A DNA stretch of 25,501 nt from a virus: IMG/VR virus record IMGVR_UViG_3300025759_000630, positions 1-25,501 of that record; one strand, 5' to 3'. Numbering within the stretch: the first letter of the stretch is position 1; every line of letters begins with the position of its first letter. This document shows positions 5,485 to 24,844 of this stretch, in pieces. The position numbers were made by a program, and so were the translations under genes. The notes below the pieces were generated by a model. That model ran no database searches. It saw nothing but the letters and a program-made list of their open reading frames with translations, and was not told the origin of the DNA.

Positions 5485-5486
5485 AA

Positions 5487-5717
5487 TTATTTACCTATTA
5501 ATATCTTATCTAATTTATCTTCTAATCTTTGAAGTGCATCCATTACTACATGCATGTCTTCTTTAACGTCATCACGTTTTGCATACTCTTCTCTTGTTTT
5601 ATTTAACAGTATGTCAAGTCTTTTTATCTCTACAAACATACCACGAAAGACCCATATAACAGGAGCTATTACGACTGTAAGTATTCCGTTCCAAAATAGT
5701 ATAGGGTTTATTTCCAT
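5487..5717 (-). CDS. Small membrane-anchored coiled-coil protein, possible lysis-accessory protein
   Basis: 76 residues. Residues 4-27 form one hydrophobic segment (ILFWNGILTVVIAPVIWVF) that should cross the membrane. The rest is a charged helix with Leu/Ile at heptad-like spacing (34-73), ending DKILIGK. One N-terminal membrane segment with a C-terminal coiled coil fits a holin-like, spanin-like or membrane-tether protein. No endolysin is next to it, so a lysis role is inference. It lies between the second fibre gene and the internal protein block, with 2 bp to the downstream gene and 13 bp to the upstream one. Confidence 0.65.
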   Translation of the reverse strand: MEINPILFWNGILTVVIAPVIWVFRGMFVEIKRLDILLNKTREEYAKRDDVKEDMHVVMDALQRLEDKLDKILIGK

Positions 5718-5730
5718 AGTTTAATTTCCA

Positions 5731-10825: not shown

Positions 10826-11578
10826 TTATAAAGAATCCAATGATGAACCTGATGTTGTTAGTGATGTTCCAACCCTACCTCTACCACTAGAACTAGGTGT
10901 CATATATGATCTAACATATATGTAGTTATTATTAATTAATAGAGAACGCATATGTTTAATACCTTCGTCAAACTTTTCTTTTGCTACTACAGCATCCTGT
11001 GTATTACCTCTAAACAAATAGGCATAGTGCATTGCACCATCAACTATGATATGTTTAAATCTTTCAGGTACATTTGGTACATCATTATGGTTCTCTAATT
11101 CTACAGCTATTCTGTAGTATTCATAAACTAATTCATATGCCTTGTCAGGTAAAGGTTGTACTATATACTCTAACGATGGAGCACATATAATAAATCTAGG
11201 TACACCTTTTGTAGGCTCTGCTTTATACTCTTGATCTACGTACTTTTCTAGGTATTCATTATATGCAAGTTCTTTTAACTTCATAGTCTGATTACCTAGT
11301 GTACTGTTTTCTTTTATTCTAAAACTTCTAAAGTTAATTGTTTTTGAATCATCAGGAAATGGGTATCTACCTGTACTAGCTGTTAATGTATCTTCTTGAA
11401 GCACATGGTTATAGGGCCATTCATACTCAGATTGATTAAGATATCTTATAGAAGCATTGACTGCATCTTTAGCTAGGTTATAAAAACCTGATGCTGTAGC
11501 AAAGTTAGTAGATGATAACTCTACTTCGTTTAATCTTCTGTTTACATCATTTACTATAGTTAAAAAATTGTATGCCAT
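10826..11578 (-). CDS. Head-to-tail adaptor protein (tail tubular A, T7 gp11-like)
   Basis: 250 residues. The N-terminal part is helical (MAYNFLTIVNDVNRRLNEVEL, then NLAKDAVNASIRYLNQSEYEWPYN); the centre is a beta domain, with ILQPLPD-type 'YIVQPLPDKAYELVYEYY' in the second half; the C-terminus returns to helix (FKHIIVDGAMHYAYLF). This pattern and size are typical of the gp11/gp4-like adaptors that form a dodecameric ring under the portal. It lies directly upstream of the nozzle gene (stop TAA abuts the ATG), the standard partner. The C-terminal 25 residues are Ser/Gly-rich and probably flexible. The homology is judged by eye, with good support from gene order. Confidence 0.85.
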   Translation of the reverse strand: MAYNFLTIVNDVNRRLNEVELSSTNFATASGFYNLAKDAVNASIRYLNQSEYEWPYNHVLQEDTLTASTGRYPFPDDSKTINFRSFRIKENSTLGNQTMKLKELAYNEYLEKYVDQEYKAEPTKGVPRFIICAPSLEYIVQPLPDKAYELVYEYYRIAVELENHNDVPNVPERFKHIIVDGAMHYAYLFRGNTQDAVVAKEKFDEGIKHMRSLLINNNYIYVRSYMTPSSSGRGRVGTSLTTSGSSLDSL

Positions 11579-12425: not shown

Positions 12426-12435
12426 AGCTTATACC

Positions 12436-12624
12436 TTAATCAGCATCCTCTATGGTCAGTTCACCTGCATCAACTTGTCGTTTGATTTCATCATACTCTT
12501 TATTTCCAACACATATTGGAACATTAGATGTAACTCCATTTATAACAACTTTATATGCAGAATGTTTTCCACTAATTGGGTCATTAACTTTTTTTACTGA
12601 TGTAAATGTAATTTTATCTAACAT
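12436..12624 (-). CDS. Small conserved-type phage protein, unknown
   Basis: 62 residues, starting MLDKITFTSVKKVNDP and ending in an acidic helix (YDEIKRQVDAGELTIEDAD). The composition is a small beta sheet plus one helix. TAGGAG formed by the upstream gene's stop region is its ribosome site. Short proteins of this style recur beside fibre genes of marine phages; I cannot name a function. Its position after the 371-aa fibre suggests a fibre accessory or virion component. Confidence 0.6.
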   Translation of the reverse strand: MLDKITFTSVKKVNDPISGKHSAYKVVINGVTSNVPICVGNKEYDEIKRQVDAGELTIEDAD

Positions 12625-12632
12625 ATAAACTC

Positions 12633-13748
12633 CTATAACTCTGCTGTTGCTTCAAAAAACCATCTAATACTATTAGCAGAATTTCCAGTAGCTGGTCTAT
12701 CAATAGAATAGTTTTTACTTCCTGCCCTAAATACATTTCCAGTTTCACCATTATATTCATTAGTACCATGTTTAGTTGTTGAAACTTTTCCAGATGTACC
12801 AGCTATATCGTATAATGTTATAGTAGGTGTGGTTCTCATTTCAGTATAAAACGTATCATAAGCTATCATTTGCCCAGTACTATTTCCACTTGAACCATTA
12901 CCATCATTACCTAACTCACCATTATTTGTAGCAGTACCGGGATTTGTTTCATAGTTATAAGATTTTTGATAGTACCTATAACACTTATGTAAATTTGTAT
13001 CAAAACTTTCATGTTCAAAAGGTGTAGCTACCTCTCCTAATTCCCATTGAACACCTGTTATTAACCAATTATAACTTGCATTACCCAAAACATTTACTTG
13101 CCCTACAGCAGAATTTGCAGCAGTATCATCAGCCCAAGTAGTTTGTAACGAACCACTTGTAAAATTAGAACCAGCAAGTAACCAAAAATCTAATGTCATG
13201 CTTTGTGCATTATCATTATCTAATGGGTCACCTGTTGATGTATCACCTGCAAAGGTAATTGTTTTATGCTCCCAAGTATCTGCTGCATTTACTGTATATG
13301 ATTTAGATATTTGTCTTGAATTATCGTGGTCATACAATCTACATATATGTGTTCCTGTTAATCCTGATTTTACCCAAAAAGAAACTGTACTTGATTTAGC
13401 TGTTGAAAACCCTTTTTGTAATCTTGGTAAGAATTGACCTTCAAAACCTTGTCTTATTATTGCATACTGTGCTGCTCCTACACTTGAGTCAGCAGTTGTT
13501 ACATCTATTTTAAAACTATTATTAAAACCTTGACCTGATGGTAAATCTGTTGCTTGAGATATTGTAAGCGTGGCATCCGAGTTATCAAGAATTTTCCATC
13601 TGTCACACGCATAATAACCAGATGACGTTACACTAGATGTACTTGTTCCTCTTTGTGCAACAGCCATGTCACCATTTATAATCATATTACGATTAGCCAA
13701 AGAAGACTGACTTCCTATCAATGCCGCTAATTCTGCTGCTTTACTCAT
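12633..13748 (-). CDS. Fibre/receptor-binding-type protein with carbohydrate-binding-like fold
   Basis: 371 residues. After a short helical head (MSKAAELAALIGSQSSLANRN) comes MIINGDMAVAQRGTS...YACDRWKI, a motif shared by many phage tail fibres and tip proteins. The centre has STVSFWVKSGLTG, HKTITFAGDTS and VQWELGEVATPFEH, which together resemble the jelly-roll (carbohydrate-binding-module-like) domain of these fibres; the 'W-LGxxATPFExxxxxxxLxxCxRYYQKS' stretch is diagnostic in my judgement. The last 110 residues are Gly/Asn-rich. The ATG overlaps the upstream GDLA gene's stop. Host-surface glycan binding is inferred from the fold, not shown. Confidence 0.8.
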   Translation of the reverse strand: MSKAAELAALIGSQSSLANRNMIINGDMAVAQRGTSTSSVTSSGYYACDRWKILDNSDATLTISQATDLPSGQGFNNSFKIDVTTADSSVGAAQYAIIRQGFEGQFLPRLQKGFSTAKSSTVSFWVKSGLTGTHICRLYDHDNSRQISKSYTVNAADTWEHKTITFAGDTSTGDPLDNDNAQSMTLDFWLLAGSNFTSGSLQTTWADDTAANSAVGQVNVLGNASYNWLITGVQWELGEVATPFEHESFDTNLHKCYRYYQKSYNYETNPGTATNNGELGNDGNGSSGNSTGQMIAYDTFYTEMRTTPTITLYDIAGTSGKVSTTKHGTNEYNGETGNVFRAGSKNYSIDRPATGNSANSIRWFFEATAEL

Positions 13749-17691: not shown

Positions 17692-18122
17692 TATGCTAAG
17701 TCTCCTACAAACTGATTAGTAACATAGTGATAATCTGCCACACCTTGTGCACCAGCATTACCATACGCTGATACAATTTCACAACTTCCTGTATCTATGT
17801 CGTTTCTATTATGAACTTGTTGTGTGTAATGATTATCAATTACGTCTTCATTTGCACCATGTGTTCCTGCATGACCATAGCCTTCTGCTGCCCTAAAGTT
17901 ATTTGTAAAATTAGGTTTATGAATACCTGACGCTACATCTGTATAGCTACCAACATTAAAACTATCAGTAGCAGAAATTGCTCCACCACTATGATTTCCT
18001 GCATACCAAACTTTGGTTAAACCTTGTTGCAGATTAGTAGTAGTAGAACCACCTTCACCTGTTACAACGATTGAACCTGCTGAAGTTGTGCCTGTAAGAG
18101 TGTTGACTTTAGCTGTACTCAT
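17691..18122 (-). CDS. GDLA-family short fibre protein (copy 2)
   Basis: 143 residues from MSTAKVNTLTGTTSAG. A longer reading from ATG 18137 would add five residues inside the upstream gene; ATG 18122 overlaps the upstream stop as ATGA and has GGAG 8 bases upstream, so it is chosen. Core: LTKVWYAGN, then ATDSFNVGSYTDVASGIHKPNFTNNFRAAEGYGHAGTHG; end VGDLA. His-rich turns (GHAGTHG) may be surface loops. Likely a tip or appendage subunit. Confidence 0.78.
   Translation of the reverse strand: MSTAKVNTLTGTTSAGSIVVTGEGGSTTTNLQQGLTKVWYAGNHSGGAISATDSFNVGSYTDVASGIHKPNFTNNFRAAEGYGHAGTHGANEDVIDNHYTQQVHNRNDIDTGSCEIVSAYGNAGAQGVADYHYVTNQFVGDLA
17695..17705 (-). promoter_or_regulatory. Coding ribosome-binding element GGAGACTTAGC (GDLA copy 2)
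   Basis: Same element with one synonymous change (GAT to GAC); TAATG overlap with GDLA copy 3. Confidence 0.75.
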
Positions 18123-22561: not shown

Positions 22562-23644
22562 TTATGCTATGTTGTAGATTGCAGTAGTAATACATTCTGG
22601 TCTTAGAATCTTTCTACCATACAAATGCATACCACGAACAATATCAGCGAAACTATCAGGGTCCCTGTAAGTTTCTGTCTTGTTGATTTGTTCAGCAGTA
22701 GCTATAGCAGAACTGTGTCCACCTACAATAACACCATAGTTAGATGTATTGGAAGCAGCTTGAGTTCCCGGACCAGTACCAACTGACGGCAAGTTATTTG
22801 ACATGTATACTTTAAAACCATGTAAATTGTTTAGAACCATACCATTCTGAAGACCACCTGTGTTTCCACCAAAGTCTGCGTTAAACAGTCTTGAGTCTTC
22901 GTCTTTTAATAGTTCAACAAATACAGGGTCAACTACAAGCCATCTATTTGCTGAGTCAACGTTTTGTTGATCCAATTTCCTTGACATACGAGCAATCAAT
23001 GTCAATGGAAAAGTTGTACCATCAGCAGGAGTTGTGTCTGTTGATCCACCTGCTCTTGGTTTAAGTAAGATACTGTTACTTGCAGAACCTGTACTACCAT
23101 CACCATCGCCAAAGTCACTAGCATCTAATTTCATAGAAGCGAGTAGTTCATCACTACCTGCTGATGAAACAGCTTTAGTTCCGTTGACTGTGGTATTAGC
23201 AGTATCAGCCGCACCATGTAATGCTGACTGTTTAAATCCTGATAAATAACCTAGTACTTCTTGGTCGTATTGATCTTTCAATCTGTATGCTGCACGATCA
23301 GATGCAAGTGATTGAAAGTTAATATGCGAATGAGCTTCTTCAATATCATCAACTTTAAATGCAAAGTAATTTGCTTTGTCAATGACAAGAGAAAACTCTT
23401 CATCGTCAATGTCTTGTGGTGAAATAGTTGTACCACGAGCATAAGACTTGACTGTAATTTCAGGTTCTTTGATTACTTTAACTGTATCTCCAAAGTTTGC
23501 AATTTCACCAAAGTAGTCTGAATTAGTTATTGCTTCTACAACAGAACCCTTGCGAAATGCAAGTTGTACCTGTTTAGAATATATGATTGGCGAGAAATTA
23601 CCATTAGGTAAATTTCCATGTCCTGCCACGCTAGTAAAAGCCAT
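22562..23644 (-). CDS. Major capsid protein
   Basis: 360 residues. Starts MAFTSVAGHGNLPNGNFSPIIYSKQVQLAFRKGSVVEAITNSDYFGEIANFGDTVKV, then a domain with VDDIEEAHSHINF and RAAYRLKDQYDQEVLGYL, ending GMHLYGRKILRPECITTAIYNIA. Helix after a flexible N-arm, an 'IxNxDYxGEIxxFGDTVKV' segment and a C-terminal '(V)xGxxxYGxKxLRPEx(I)TTA' strand fit HK97-fold coat proteins of marine podo/siphoviruses. It follows the scaffolding gene and has the strongest ribosome site in the window (AAAAAGGAGA) plus its own promoter, as expected for the most abundant virion protein. Confidence 0.9.
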   Translation of the reverse strand: MAFTSVAGHGNLPNGNFSPIIYSKQVQLAFRKGSVVEAITNSDYFGEIANFGDTVKVIKEPEITVKSYARGTTISPQDIDDEEFSLVIDKANYFAFKVDDIEEAHSHINFQSLASDRAAYRLKDQYDQEVLGYLSGFKQSALHGAADTANTTVNGTKAVSSAGSDELLASMKLDASDFGDGDGSTGSASNSILLKPRAGGSTDTTPADGTTFPLTLIARMSRKLDQQNVDSANRWLVVDPVFVELLKDEDSRLFNADFGGNTGGLQNGMVLNNLHGFKVYMSNNLPSVGTGPGTQAASNTSNYGVIVGGHSSAIATAEQINKTETYRDPDSFADIVRGMHLYGRKILRPECITTAIYNIA

Positions 23645-23900
23645 TATAAGTCTCCTTTTTCTTTTACTTAAACAGATGCAAAAAGTACTATACGCTCAGA
23701 GGTCTACAGCAAAAGGTGCAAACAGAGAACACGTTGCAATCGCATTCAAAGGTTGGGCTTATACTTATAGAGTTAGTCTCAATGTATTAATGTAATTTGC
23801 GAATTATATACGTAATTCCTAGGTTGCACTATGTGGGCTAGTTCATACGTTATCTGTAGTTATACCTACAAATGCTTATTTGTCAACCATTTTTTTGCTA
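23645..23900 (-). other. 256-bp leader/intergenic region before the capsid gene
   Basis: The longest non-coding stretch in the window. It holds the sigma70-type promoter (23859-23886), a perfect TATAAT without a good -35 near 23805-23810 inside a 6-bp inverted repeat (GAATTA ... TAATTC, 23801-23818), and AAAAAGGAGA before the capsid ATG. I find no tRNA, no strong terminator and no clear minus-strand ORF. The implied mRNA leader is about 200 bases. Confidence 0.7.
23859..23886 (-). promoter_or_regulatory. Sigma70-type promoter for the capsid gene
   Basis: Minus strand: TTGACA (23881-23886, perfect -35), a 16-bp spacer, TATAAC (23859-23864, 5 of 6 for -10). Located directly after the scaffolding gene and about 215 bp upstream of the capsid ATG. 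Transcription would start near 23852. This is the only near-consensus promoter I found in a gap between genes. Confidence 0.72.
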
Positions 23901-24785
23901 TTACCTAGCTGAACCTGATAGGTCATATACAAATTTACCACTTCTTATTGCTTCCATTACTTCGTCAGCACGTTTCTCATATTCTTGAGGGCTCATCTTT
24001 TCTACTTGAGACTCTTTTAAATAAGAAGCTGTTTCATCTGTAGTAGGTTGACTTCTCTCTGATCTAGTATCTACAGCTTTTGCTGCATCTTTTTTGTCAG
24101 ATTTCTTTTTAGGTTTAATGTCCTTGTCTGCTTTATATAGATCAATTGCTCTTGCAGCTGATCTTGCATCAGAACTATTCTCATACAGTGCATCTTGTAC
24201 CCACTTAGGCTGTTGGTCTGCCCACTCATGGAACTCATCACTATCTCTAATCTCACCAAAGTCAGGATGTAATCTTAACAATTCTACTTCAGCTTTTTCT
24301 TTTGATGCTTCAACTCTTAGGTCTTCATACTCTTTCATGCGACCTTCTAGCATTTCGTTTTGTTCTTTTGCTTTTTTAATAGCAATAGTTTCTACAATAG
24401 CTGCAACATCAGGATATTCTTTTGCCCAATCTTCTAGCTCTGCTTCAGTCTTGGGTAATTTAATTTCACTCTTTGTTGATGACTCTAACTGTTTCTTTAC
24501 ACTCTCTAACTCTTTCTTTAAGTCTTCGGTTTGTTTTTGCGTGTGTCTTCGTAGATCGCCATAACGTTTTTTAAAACTTCTTTCTTCAGCACTCGTAGGA
24601 TTCTCCGTGCCTTCATCTTCCGTTTCAGGTTCTTTAGTGTCAGAATCATTTTTTTGCTCCTCTACTAATTTCTTTAATTCATCTTCGTCTTTTTTTATTT
24701 TGTCTTCTCTGCTATATGGCTTTGCCATAAATGCTTTCTTTTCTATTTTAACTTCTTTAGTCATAGCTTGTGTTTGTTCTGCCAT
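23901..24785 (-). CDS. Capsid scaffolding protein
   Basis: 294 residues from MAEQTQAMTKEV. An upstream in-frame ATG (24821) exists, but AAGGAG is 7 bases before 24785, so that start is preferred. The protein is extremely Glu/Lys/Asp/Ser-rich and nearly all helical: an acidic disordered N-terminal third, a coiled coil (about 85-160), then a helical C-terminal domain with YLKESQVEKMSPQEYEKRADEVMEAIRSGKFVYDLSGSAR. Charge pattern, length and position immediately before the major capsid gene are those of podovirus scaffolding proteins, which template the procapsid and then leave. No protease motif is visible. Confidence 0.85.
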   Translation of the reverse strand: MAEQTQAMTKEVKIEKKAFMAKPYSREDKIKKDEDELKKLVEEQKNDSDTKEPETEDEGTENPTSAEERSFKKRYGDLRRHTQKQTEDLKKELESVKKQLESSTKSEIKLPKTEAELEDWAKEYPDVAAIVETIAIKKAKEQNEMLEGRMKEYEDLRVEASKEKAEVELLRLHPDFGEIRDSDEFHEWADQQPKWVQDALYENSSDARSAARAIDLYKADKDIKPKKKSDKKDAAKAVDTRSERSQPTTDETASYLKESQVEKMSPQEYEKRADEVMEAIRSGKFVYDLSGSAR

Positions 24786-24799
24786 GTTCTTCTCCTTTG

Positions 24800-24844
24800 T
24801 TGTTGGGGTCATAGTAGCCACTTGGGGGTGTGAGTAGCCAACAA
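24800..24844 (-). promoter_or_regulatory. Inverted repeat next to the scaffolding ribosome site
   Basis: On the minus strand TTGTTGG (24838-24844) and CCAACAA (24800-24806) form a perfect 7-bp stem around 31 bases, ending 2 bases before AAGGAG (24792-24797). The loop contains GGCTACT twice, 20 bp apart. It could modulate scaffolding translation; this is inference. Confidence 0.4.

Follow-up and report, generated by a model that had tools for sequence, protein, structure and literature searches.

A conserved structured RNA in the capsid leader of HMO-2011-type marine podoviruses, downstream of a sigma70-type promoter

The major capsid gene in the viral DNA studied here is preceded by a sigma70-type promoter and by a leader that holds a conserved structured RNA, backed by compensatory base-pair changes. 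The promoter boxes, the RNA fold, and its position immediately ahead of the capsid gene are all conserved among relatives, and we are highly confident that both the promoter and the RNA structure are real. On balance, we favor a reading in which the promoter starts a late-block transcript whose leader RNA is a cis regulator of the capsid mRNA. The leader RNA is apparently new and apparently unannotated.

The stretch of DNA analyzed, hereafter the window, is an entire IMG/VR record of 25,501 bases. It is evidently a fragment, because its nearest named relatives measure 52.7 to 56.2 kb. The minus strand carries gene-sized ORFs that tile the window, a 25.5-kb late-gene fragment. The capsid protein shares 77.2% identity with the coat protein of Roseobacter phage CRP-345 and 73.3% with its counterpart in Puniceispirillum phage HMO-2011, and the order of upstream gene, gap, and capsid gene is the same as in HMO-2011-type relatives; because of this identity and the matching local gene order, the window is assigned to the HMO-2011-type marine podoviruses. 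Judging from its position, the upstream gene is probably the scaffold gene. A Pfam search returned no match for this presumed scaffold protein and none for the capsid protein either. The gap between the two genes (23645–23900) had been called the only sizeable one, a description that stands insofar as it is the sole sizeable gap lacking a plausible minus-strand ORF; two more sizeable gaps, 5485–5730 and 12426–12632, also exist and carry minus-strand ORFs of 76 and 62 aa. The features around the gap, with boxes and ribosome-binding site read from the sequence, are as follows.

22562–23644, minus strand: major capsid gene, 360 aa (PHROG 267, major head protein, E 3.9e-68)
23651–23657, minus strand: ribosome-binding site AAGGAGA of the capsid gene
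23850–23854, minus strand: predicted transcription start region, ~23852, placed by its distance from the −10 box
23859–23864, minus strand: −10 box TATAAC
23881–23886, minus strand: −35 box TTGACA
23901–24821, minus strand: upstream gene, 306 aa, probably scaffold by position (PHROG 13678, function unknown)

The earlier note had read TTGACA, 16 bp, and TATAAC at 23859–23886 as a promoter facing the capsid gene, and the boxes are exactly so on the minus strand, with the PHROG 267 gene downstream. TTGACA-16-TATAAC agrees with 11 of 12 sigma70 consensus letters, and its spacer lies inside the 16–18 range. When the spacer is allowed to run from 15 to 19, the record holds one exact match to the two boxes. 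At a spacer of 16 with at most two mismatches, eight matches are found against 6.0 expected (28 of 100 shuffles reach eight), and the site at 23886–23859 alone among them has no mismatch. A simple promoter scan omitted this site because it requires the −10 box to end in T. From the distance to that box, a start near 23852 is a reasonable prediction.

Conservation of the two boxes in related phages had been proposed as a check on the promoter. Both are exact in all 77 usable close relatives among 80 capsid-matched IMG/VR loci fetched (L019, L042, and L051 were left out of the count, their upstream sequence being too short). The spacer is 16 nt long in 71 of these and 17 nt in six, and the −35 box stands 203–294 bases ahead of the capsid match. 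Since the boxes are conserved in 77 of 77 while the spacer letters vary, the promoter is beyond chance. An alignment of 72 sequences including the window was made without the three short-upstream loci, L005, and duplicates. In the window, the spacer (23865–23880) is AT-rich, and in many relatives it is near-palindromic (AAATAGTTATTT); such a spacer is possibly an operator.

The promoter was also sought in IMG/VR independently of the capsid gene, with the pattern TTGACA-16/17-TATAACTATA, which gave at least 120 stretches, the 80 listed ones being examined. Among these 80 listed matches, 59 stand 203–288 bases ahead of a capsid homolog, and capsid linkage was found for 59 of the 63 listed with a 16-nt spacer vs none of the 17 listed with a 17-nt spacer; promoters with 17-nt spacers do occur ahead of capsid genes, as in six of the capsid-matched relatives. 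The locus sets fetched by capsid, by promoter pattern, and by other queries overlap in part. A scan of genome contigs gave 34 loci, from MAG contigs and actinobacteria. Four contigs (L401–L404) from bins labeled Euryarchaeota, Bacteroidetes, Gammaproteobacteria, and Blastopirellula MAGs encode capsid relatives 56–76% identical to that of the window and are likely phage contigs inside bins.

We compared 13 named relatives, namely HMO-2011, eleven CRP roseophages, and ctYwJ313. In HMO-2011, CRP-345, CRP-1, CRP-13, and CRP-9, the boxes are exact with a 16-nt spacer; in ctYwJ313, they are exact with an 18-nt spacer; and in CRP-2, CRP-207, and CRP-603, the −35 box is exact and one −10 letter is changed. 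The boxes are absent from the remaining four of these relatives (CRP-212, CRP-738, CRP-3, and CRP-235). HMO-2011, CRP-345, and CRP-1 share with the window a related capsid gene, the same gap, the promoter boxes, and the leader RNA. According to PMC8528129, CRP-9 and CRP-13 have HMO-2011-type morphogenesis but Cobavirus-type replication modules. More distant leaders were gathered with the capsids of CRP-3 and Sinorhizobium phage phiM6 as queries (80 loci each; after duplicates and short-upstream loci were dropped, 58 CRP-3-query and 63 phiM6-query loci were kept for the module test described below and 57 and 63 for the box test). Exact boxes occur in none of the 58 CRP-3-query relatives; a site with at least 10 of 12 positions occurs in 23 of 57 vs ~4% of shuffles, in a test that used single-letter shuffles and accepted T or C as the final −10 letter. 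On the plus strand, TTGACA-16/17-TATAAC also appears in CRP-345 at 13358, CRP-1 at 12503, CRP-2 at 12686, CRP-207 at 11260, and CRP-603 at 12610; this second set, at ~11–13 kb on the opposite strand of five named phages, may be coding or another promoter.

The leader between the promoter and the capsid AUG is ~200 nt long and comprises a 5′ hairpin, H1, followed by a core of nested helices. Its elements are listed below in the order of transcription, with the evidence for each in parentheses.

23810–23850, minus strand: 5′ hairpin H1 with module 1, CTAG-CC-CAC / GTG-CAAC-CTAG at 23841–23819 (module scan, minimum-energy fold)
23672–23800, minus strand: structured leader core, P2 to P6 plus a conserved AUCUGU (alignment A1, pair counts)
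23796–23800, minus strand: P2 5′ strand GCAAA, partner 23682–23678 (A1, pair counts)
23768–23779, minus strand: P3/P4 5′ strand AGA-CTAAC-TCTA, module 2, partner 23706–23698 (hand-added; A1, fold)
23753–23760, minus strand: P5 5′ strand AAG-CC-CAA, module 3, partner 23721–23713 (A1, module scan, fold)
23727–23747, minus strand: P6 inner hairpin GAATGCG-ATTGCAA-CGTGTTC (A1; terminator-like in the simple scan)
23713–23721, minus strand: P5 3′ strand TTG-CAC-CTT, module 3 (A1, module scan, fold)
23698–23706, minus strand: P4/P3 3′ strand TAGA-CC-TCT, module 2 (hand-added; A1, fold)
23678–23682, minus strand: P2 3′ strand TTTGC (A1, pair counts)

A minimum-energy fold of the window leader shows H1 and P2–P6, and a hairpin at the H1 position is also found in three groups of relatives. 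The window leader is no more stable than its shuffles, of which 169 in 200 equal or exceed its stability (z +0.90), and we rejected single-sequence folding energy as evidence for an RNA on that account. The case for the RNA rests on covariation. Three further candidates were set aside, namely a terminator at P6, listed by the simple scan, whose T-rich tail the A1 sequences do not preserve; a pseudoknot between an apical GGCC and a GGCC before P5, seen by eye and seemingly not kept in lineages with other apical loops; and masking of the ribosome-binding site through pairing with the conserved AUCUGU, a hint in the fold of one group that is not general.

Alignment A1 is a MAFFT alignment of 34 cores from one lineage. 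Forty distinct cores were extracted by a regular expression, and 40 other leaders, largely of other lineages, gave none or duplicates; A1 leaves out L025, L027, L048, and L049 as short and L083 and L086 as long, and the starts of L030 and L059 are shifted in it by 9 bases. The structure has 27 nested pairs, in which 93.8% of 917 cells pair vs 31–40% with the partners slid, a lead owed partly to the structure being drawn from the same alignment on which it is counted. Seventeen pairs change on both sides, including all seven pairs of P6, and the covariation score is 0.395 vs 0.158 for shuffles, none of 500 reaching 0.395. The automatic consensus contained 17 pairs, to which P3, P4, P5a, and the P2 pair 6–127 were added by hand and from which a rival two-pair helix (31–45, 32–44) was removed by hand. 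When column pairs are ranked by covariation, eight of the top 17 fall in the structure (six in P6, one in P4, one in P5b) and nine fall outside; P3 and P5a are absent from the top 45, and their support comes from the pair counts in A1 and in the wider model-fitted set described below.

A covariance model built from A1 gave 30 matches at E up to 1 in 56 sources, not all of them relatives. Five of these are the model's own rows, and four are weaker than E 0.01 (L043, CRP-3, CRP-2, and phiM6), the last three being too weak to count alone (0.023, 0.36, and 0.88, respectively). New matches at E below 0.01 include CRP-345, CRP-1, CRP-13, CRP-9, ctYwJ313, CRP-212, and CRP-235. The window core, itself one of the model's 34 sequences, scores 70 bits (E 1.6e-12). 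In the wider set of 30 sequences fitted to the model, two-sided changes appear in 26 of 27 pairs, and 90.6% of cells are paired vs 32–42% when slid, in an alignment that leans toward the model. A second lineage, with 15 sequences, an alignment of its own, and a hand-drawn structure, has 96.8% of cells paired and four pairs with two-sided changes; at a mean column identity of 91%, and with further pair types that do not rise above shuffles (400 of 500), the support that it adds is modest. The sequences share descent, and these counts are accordingly not independent.

A second feature of the leader is that its helices are separated by one type of internal loop, G-CC opposite one to three letters followed by AC-C. 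Examples from relatives are AAAGAG-CC-TCCA / TGGA-CTAC-CTCTTT in CRP-13 and TTAG-CC-CCCTC / GAGGG-ATAC-CTAA in phiM6. Across 93 leaders, not deduplicated and with alternative pairings counted, the mean number of modules per leader is 2.04 vs 0.20 in dinucleotide shuffles, and at least one is present in 92, CRP-738 being the miss. The descriptor fixes the loop letters, and its score thus gauges the pairing around the loop. At least one module was found in 56 of 63 phiM6-query leaders vs 12% of shuffles (mean 1.57 vs 0.15) and in 56 of 58 CRP-3-query leaders vs 33% of shuffles (mean 3.28 vs 0.45). The loop letters recur while the helix letters change, which points to a recognized shape or binding site. 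The loop may resemble the C-loop motif, likewise an asymmetric internal loop; the consensus letters of that motif were sought in the literature and not found, and the likeness is put forward tentatively.

A looser descriptor of nested modules was run on five whole genomes, 19 kb of phiM6, and the window. It detected the capsid leader in CRP-345, CRP-1, CRP-13, CRP-3, and phiM6 but not in HMO-2011 or the window, and it had no match in 317,541 shuffled bases (one shuffle per piece). Six weak matches lie off the capsid leader, in the genomes of HMO-2011, CRP-1, CRP-13, and CRP-3. The apical loops of the inner hairpin (23734–23740 in the window) and of its counterparts in relatives are often palindromic, with GGCC, UGUACA, UUGCAA, UAGCUA, and UGAUCA among them, and may form kissing dimers.

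The RNA is tied to the capsid gene. In 16 records searched whole, nine have a model match at E 0.05, one each and all at the capsid leader, and seven have none at that threshold; HMO-2011 and the window, both among the 16, are also model rows. Among the loci fetched by promoter pattern, some of which are the same contigs as model rows, the model matches 44 of 58 with a capsid gene vs none of 21 without. The CRP-3-query leaders keep their modules with exact boxes in none of them, and modules likewise persist in phiM6 and in the 25 of 63 phiM6-query relatives from which exact boxes are absent. In ctYwJ313 (Caudoviricetes sp.), an annotated HNH endonuclease gene (L088 1315–1884) lies between the promoter (record 30256–30227, L088 1206–1235) and the core, which at L088 1846–1967 overlaps the end of the HNH gene and still adjoins the capsid gene at 2001. 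This PacI-like HNH gene within the capsid leader (L088:1206–2001) resembles a homing insertion. RNA and promoter are thus separable, with the RNA persisting in distant relatives that do not have the boxes. For more distant capsids (Pelagibacter phages HTVC033P, HTVC103P, and HTVC115P and Aeromonas phage MQM1), there is no room for a leader RNA because the gaps are just 17–58 nt.

No known family accounts for the leader. Rfam 15 at gathering score gave no match in the window or in 15 relatives, and the leader alone, searched at E up to 5, returned only mcrA at 10.8 bits (E 2.7), far under the gathering score; a tRNA/tmRNA search of the sequence found none. By term search, the word "promoter" is absent from the main texts of PMC9038755, PMC8528129, and PMC6918029, and "RNA polymerase" occurs only in the last of the three, five times; in the portions of PMC6918029 available, these mentions belong to a figure key and to the Cobavirus group. 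A literature search over titles and the starts of abstracts, with few subscription journals in its range, returned no report of a promoter or RNA at the capsid leader, and the available portion of a study of pelagiphage transcriptomes (PMC12753301) does not touch on such an element.

The promoter also bears on who transcribes the late genes. Capsid transcription by the host enzyme had been suggested from the sigma70-type boxes, and the suggestion gains support from the retention of the boxes in close relatives and from the group's having no detected T7-like RNA polymerase. A search for an RNA polymerase gene, which the earlier note had also proposed, used PF00940 and thus covers T7-like enzymes; neither the 13 named relatives nor the window, a fragment, gave a match, and among 20 records only MQM1 was positive. 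Because no T7-like polymerase was found in the group, host transcription is the expected state for HMO-2011-type phages and not special. The MQM1 match (55320–56797) falls in two separate stretches with open frames of 610 and 383 aa, and the gene is perhaps split or interrupted. In phage T7, promoter phi10 precedes capsid gene 10, and T7 uses its own polymerase. The window promoter likewise lies between (presumed) scaffold and capsid genes in a late block; unlike phi10, its boxes are of the sigma70 type and no T7-like polymerase was found in the group.

The proposal that the promoter is dedicated to the capsid gene is not supported, as the next gene on the same strand begins 13 nt past the capsid gene and the next listed minus-strand terminator-like site downstream comes only at 17991. 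Given the 13-nt distance, transcription from the promoter probably extends past the capsid gene into the genes beyond it, and the promoter more likely restarts the late block at the capsid gene than serves that gene alone. In HMO-2011, the same strand forms one long late block running ~19 kb beyond the capsid gene. The minus (late) strand of HMO-2011 (GU557055) has two more exact TTGACA-17-TATAAT sites, at 53396 and 31754; one of the two is close to where the late strand begins, and the other precedes gp42. That the capsid would get more mRNA than the scaffold, as had been suggested, is plausible.

How these elements might work together can be put as follows. Host polymerase would start near 23852 from the promoter at 23886–23859, at the capsid gene of the late block, and the leader would fold while being transcribed. 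Its first ~200 nt would form the 5′ hairpin and then the long-range helix P2, enclosing a P3–P6 rod with repeated internal loops. These loops would probably serve as a protein-binding site, with coat or scaffold as possible partners, or else keep a specific shape, and the shape or the protein would set ribosome access, translation, or mRNA lifetime, so that capsid output would be tuned apart from scaffold. We infer the transcription start, the cis action, and the protein partner, and consider it reasonably probable that the leader RNA acts in cis on capsid expression. A bolder version, advanced only tentatively, is that tandem internal-loop modules define a new viral RNA class that is the main control point of capsid production, acting via a dedicated protein or the host polymerase and possibly as a dimer at the palindromic apical loop.

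Among other explanations, the leader could be a put-like antiterminator, in which the nascent RNA would bind host RNA polymerase and enable read-through of the late block. As described in PMC9378689, the put RNAs of phage HK022 are ~70 nt long with two stem-loops, occur in two copies, and lie downstream of the early promoters ahead of early genes, putR being ~270 nt from its start. The leader is, like put, a structured RNA that begins a phage transcript made by host polymerase (presumed here), in a group with no T7-like polymerase detected, and it lies upstream of the late block, which in HMO-2011 runs on for ~19 kb beyond the capsid gene. Unlike put, the leader is ~200 nt long, with a 129-nt core plus H1 in a rod of nested helices, has other motifs and one match per genome, and precedes the capsid gene. 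Across the 16 whole records, no genome has more than one model match and none lies at another promoter at E 0.05, and in ctYwJ313 the RNA stays with the capsid gene and not with the promoter. We regard antitermination as unlikely.

It is less likely again that the promoter alone matters and that the leader is an mRNA-stabilizing 5′ structure with no specific partner. Hairpins at 5′ ends commonly stabilize mRNA, and H1 begins near the predicted 5′ end, but the recurrence of the internal-loop letters amid changing helix letters argues for specific recognition or a three-dimensional shape. We give very little credence to the leader's yielding a separate trans-acting RNA, through processing or an end at P6 and with roles in apical-loop pairing or particle assembly, or to P6 being an attenuator. 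P6 (23747–23727) does look terminator-like in the simple scan, and six of 23 distinct apical loops hold a 6-mer palindrome vs a shuffle mean of 0.84 and a largest value of four in 500 shuffles, in a statistic that ignores shared descent; against this, the T-rich tail is not kept across A1, and the capsid gene is always next in the loci examined by capsid homology. That the boxes are a chance match conserved by shared descent alone is scarcely credible, for although looser promoter-like matches are common in the window DNA (56 found by the simple scan, 80.7 expected), 12 exact positions persist in all 77 usable relatives over a varying spacer and were found again ahead of the capsid in 59 of the 80 matches listed, with no use of the capsid gene.

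The promoter seen in the raw sequence is the visible edge of a larger element, the leader RNA, which the earlier note missed. A conserved folded RNA with no known family match means that the capsid gene may be under an undescribed form of RNA-level control. In an abundant group of ocean phages, the capsid-leader RNA offers a concrete way to study how a tailed phage adjusts the output of the protein that it makes most of, and the structure and partner of its recurring module are open to direct testing.
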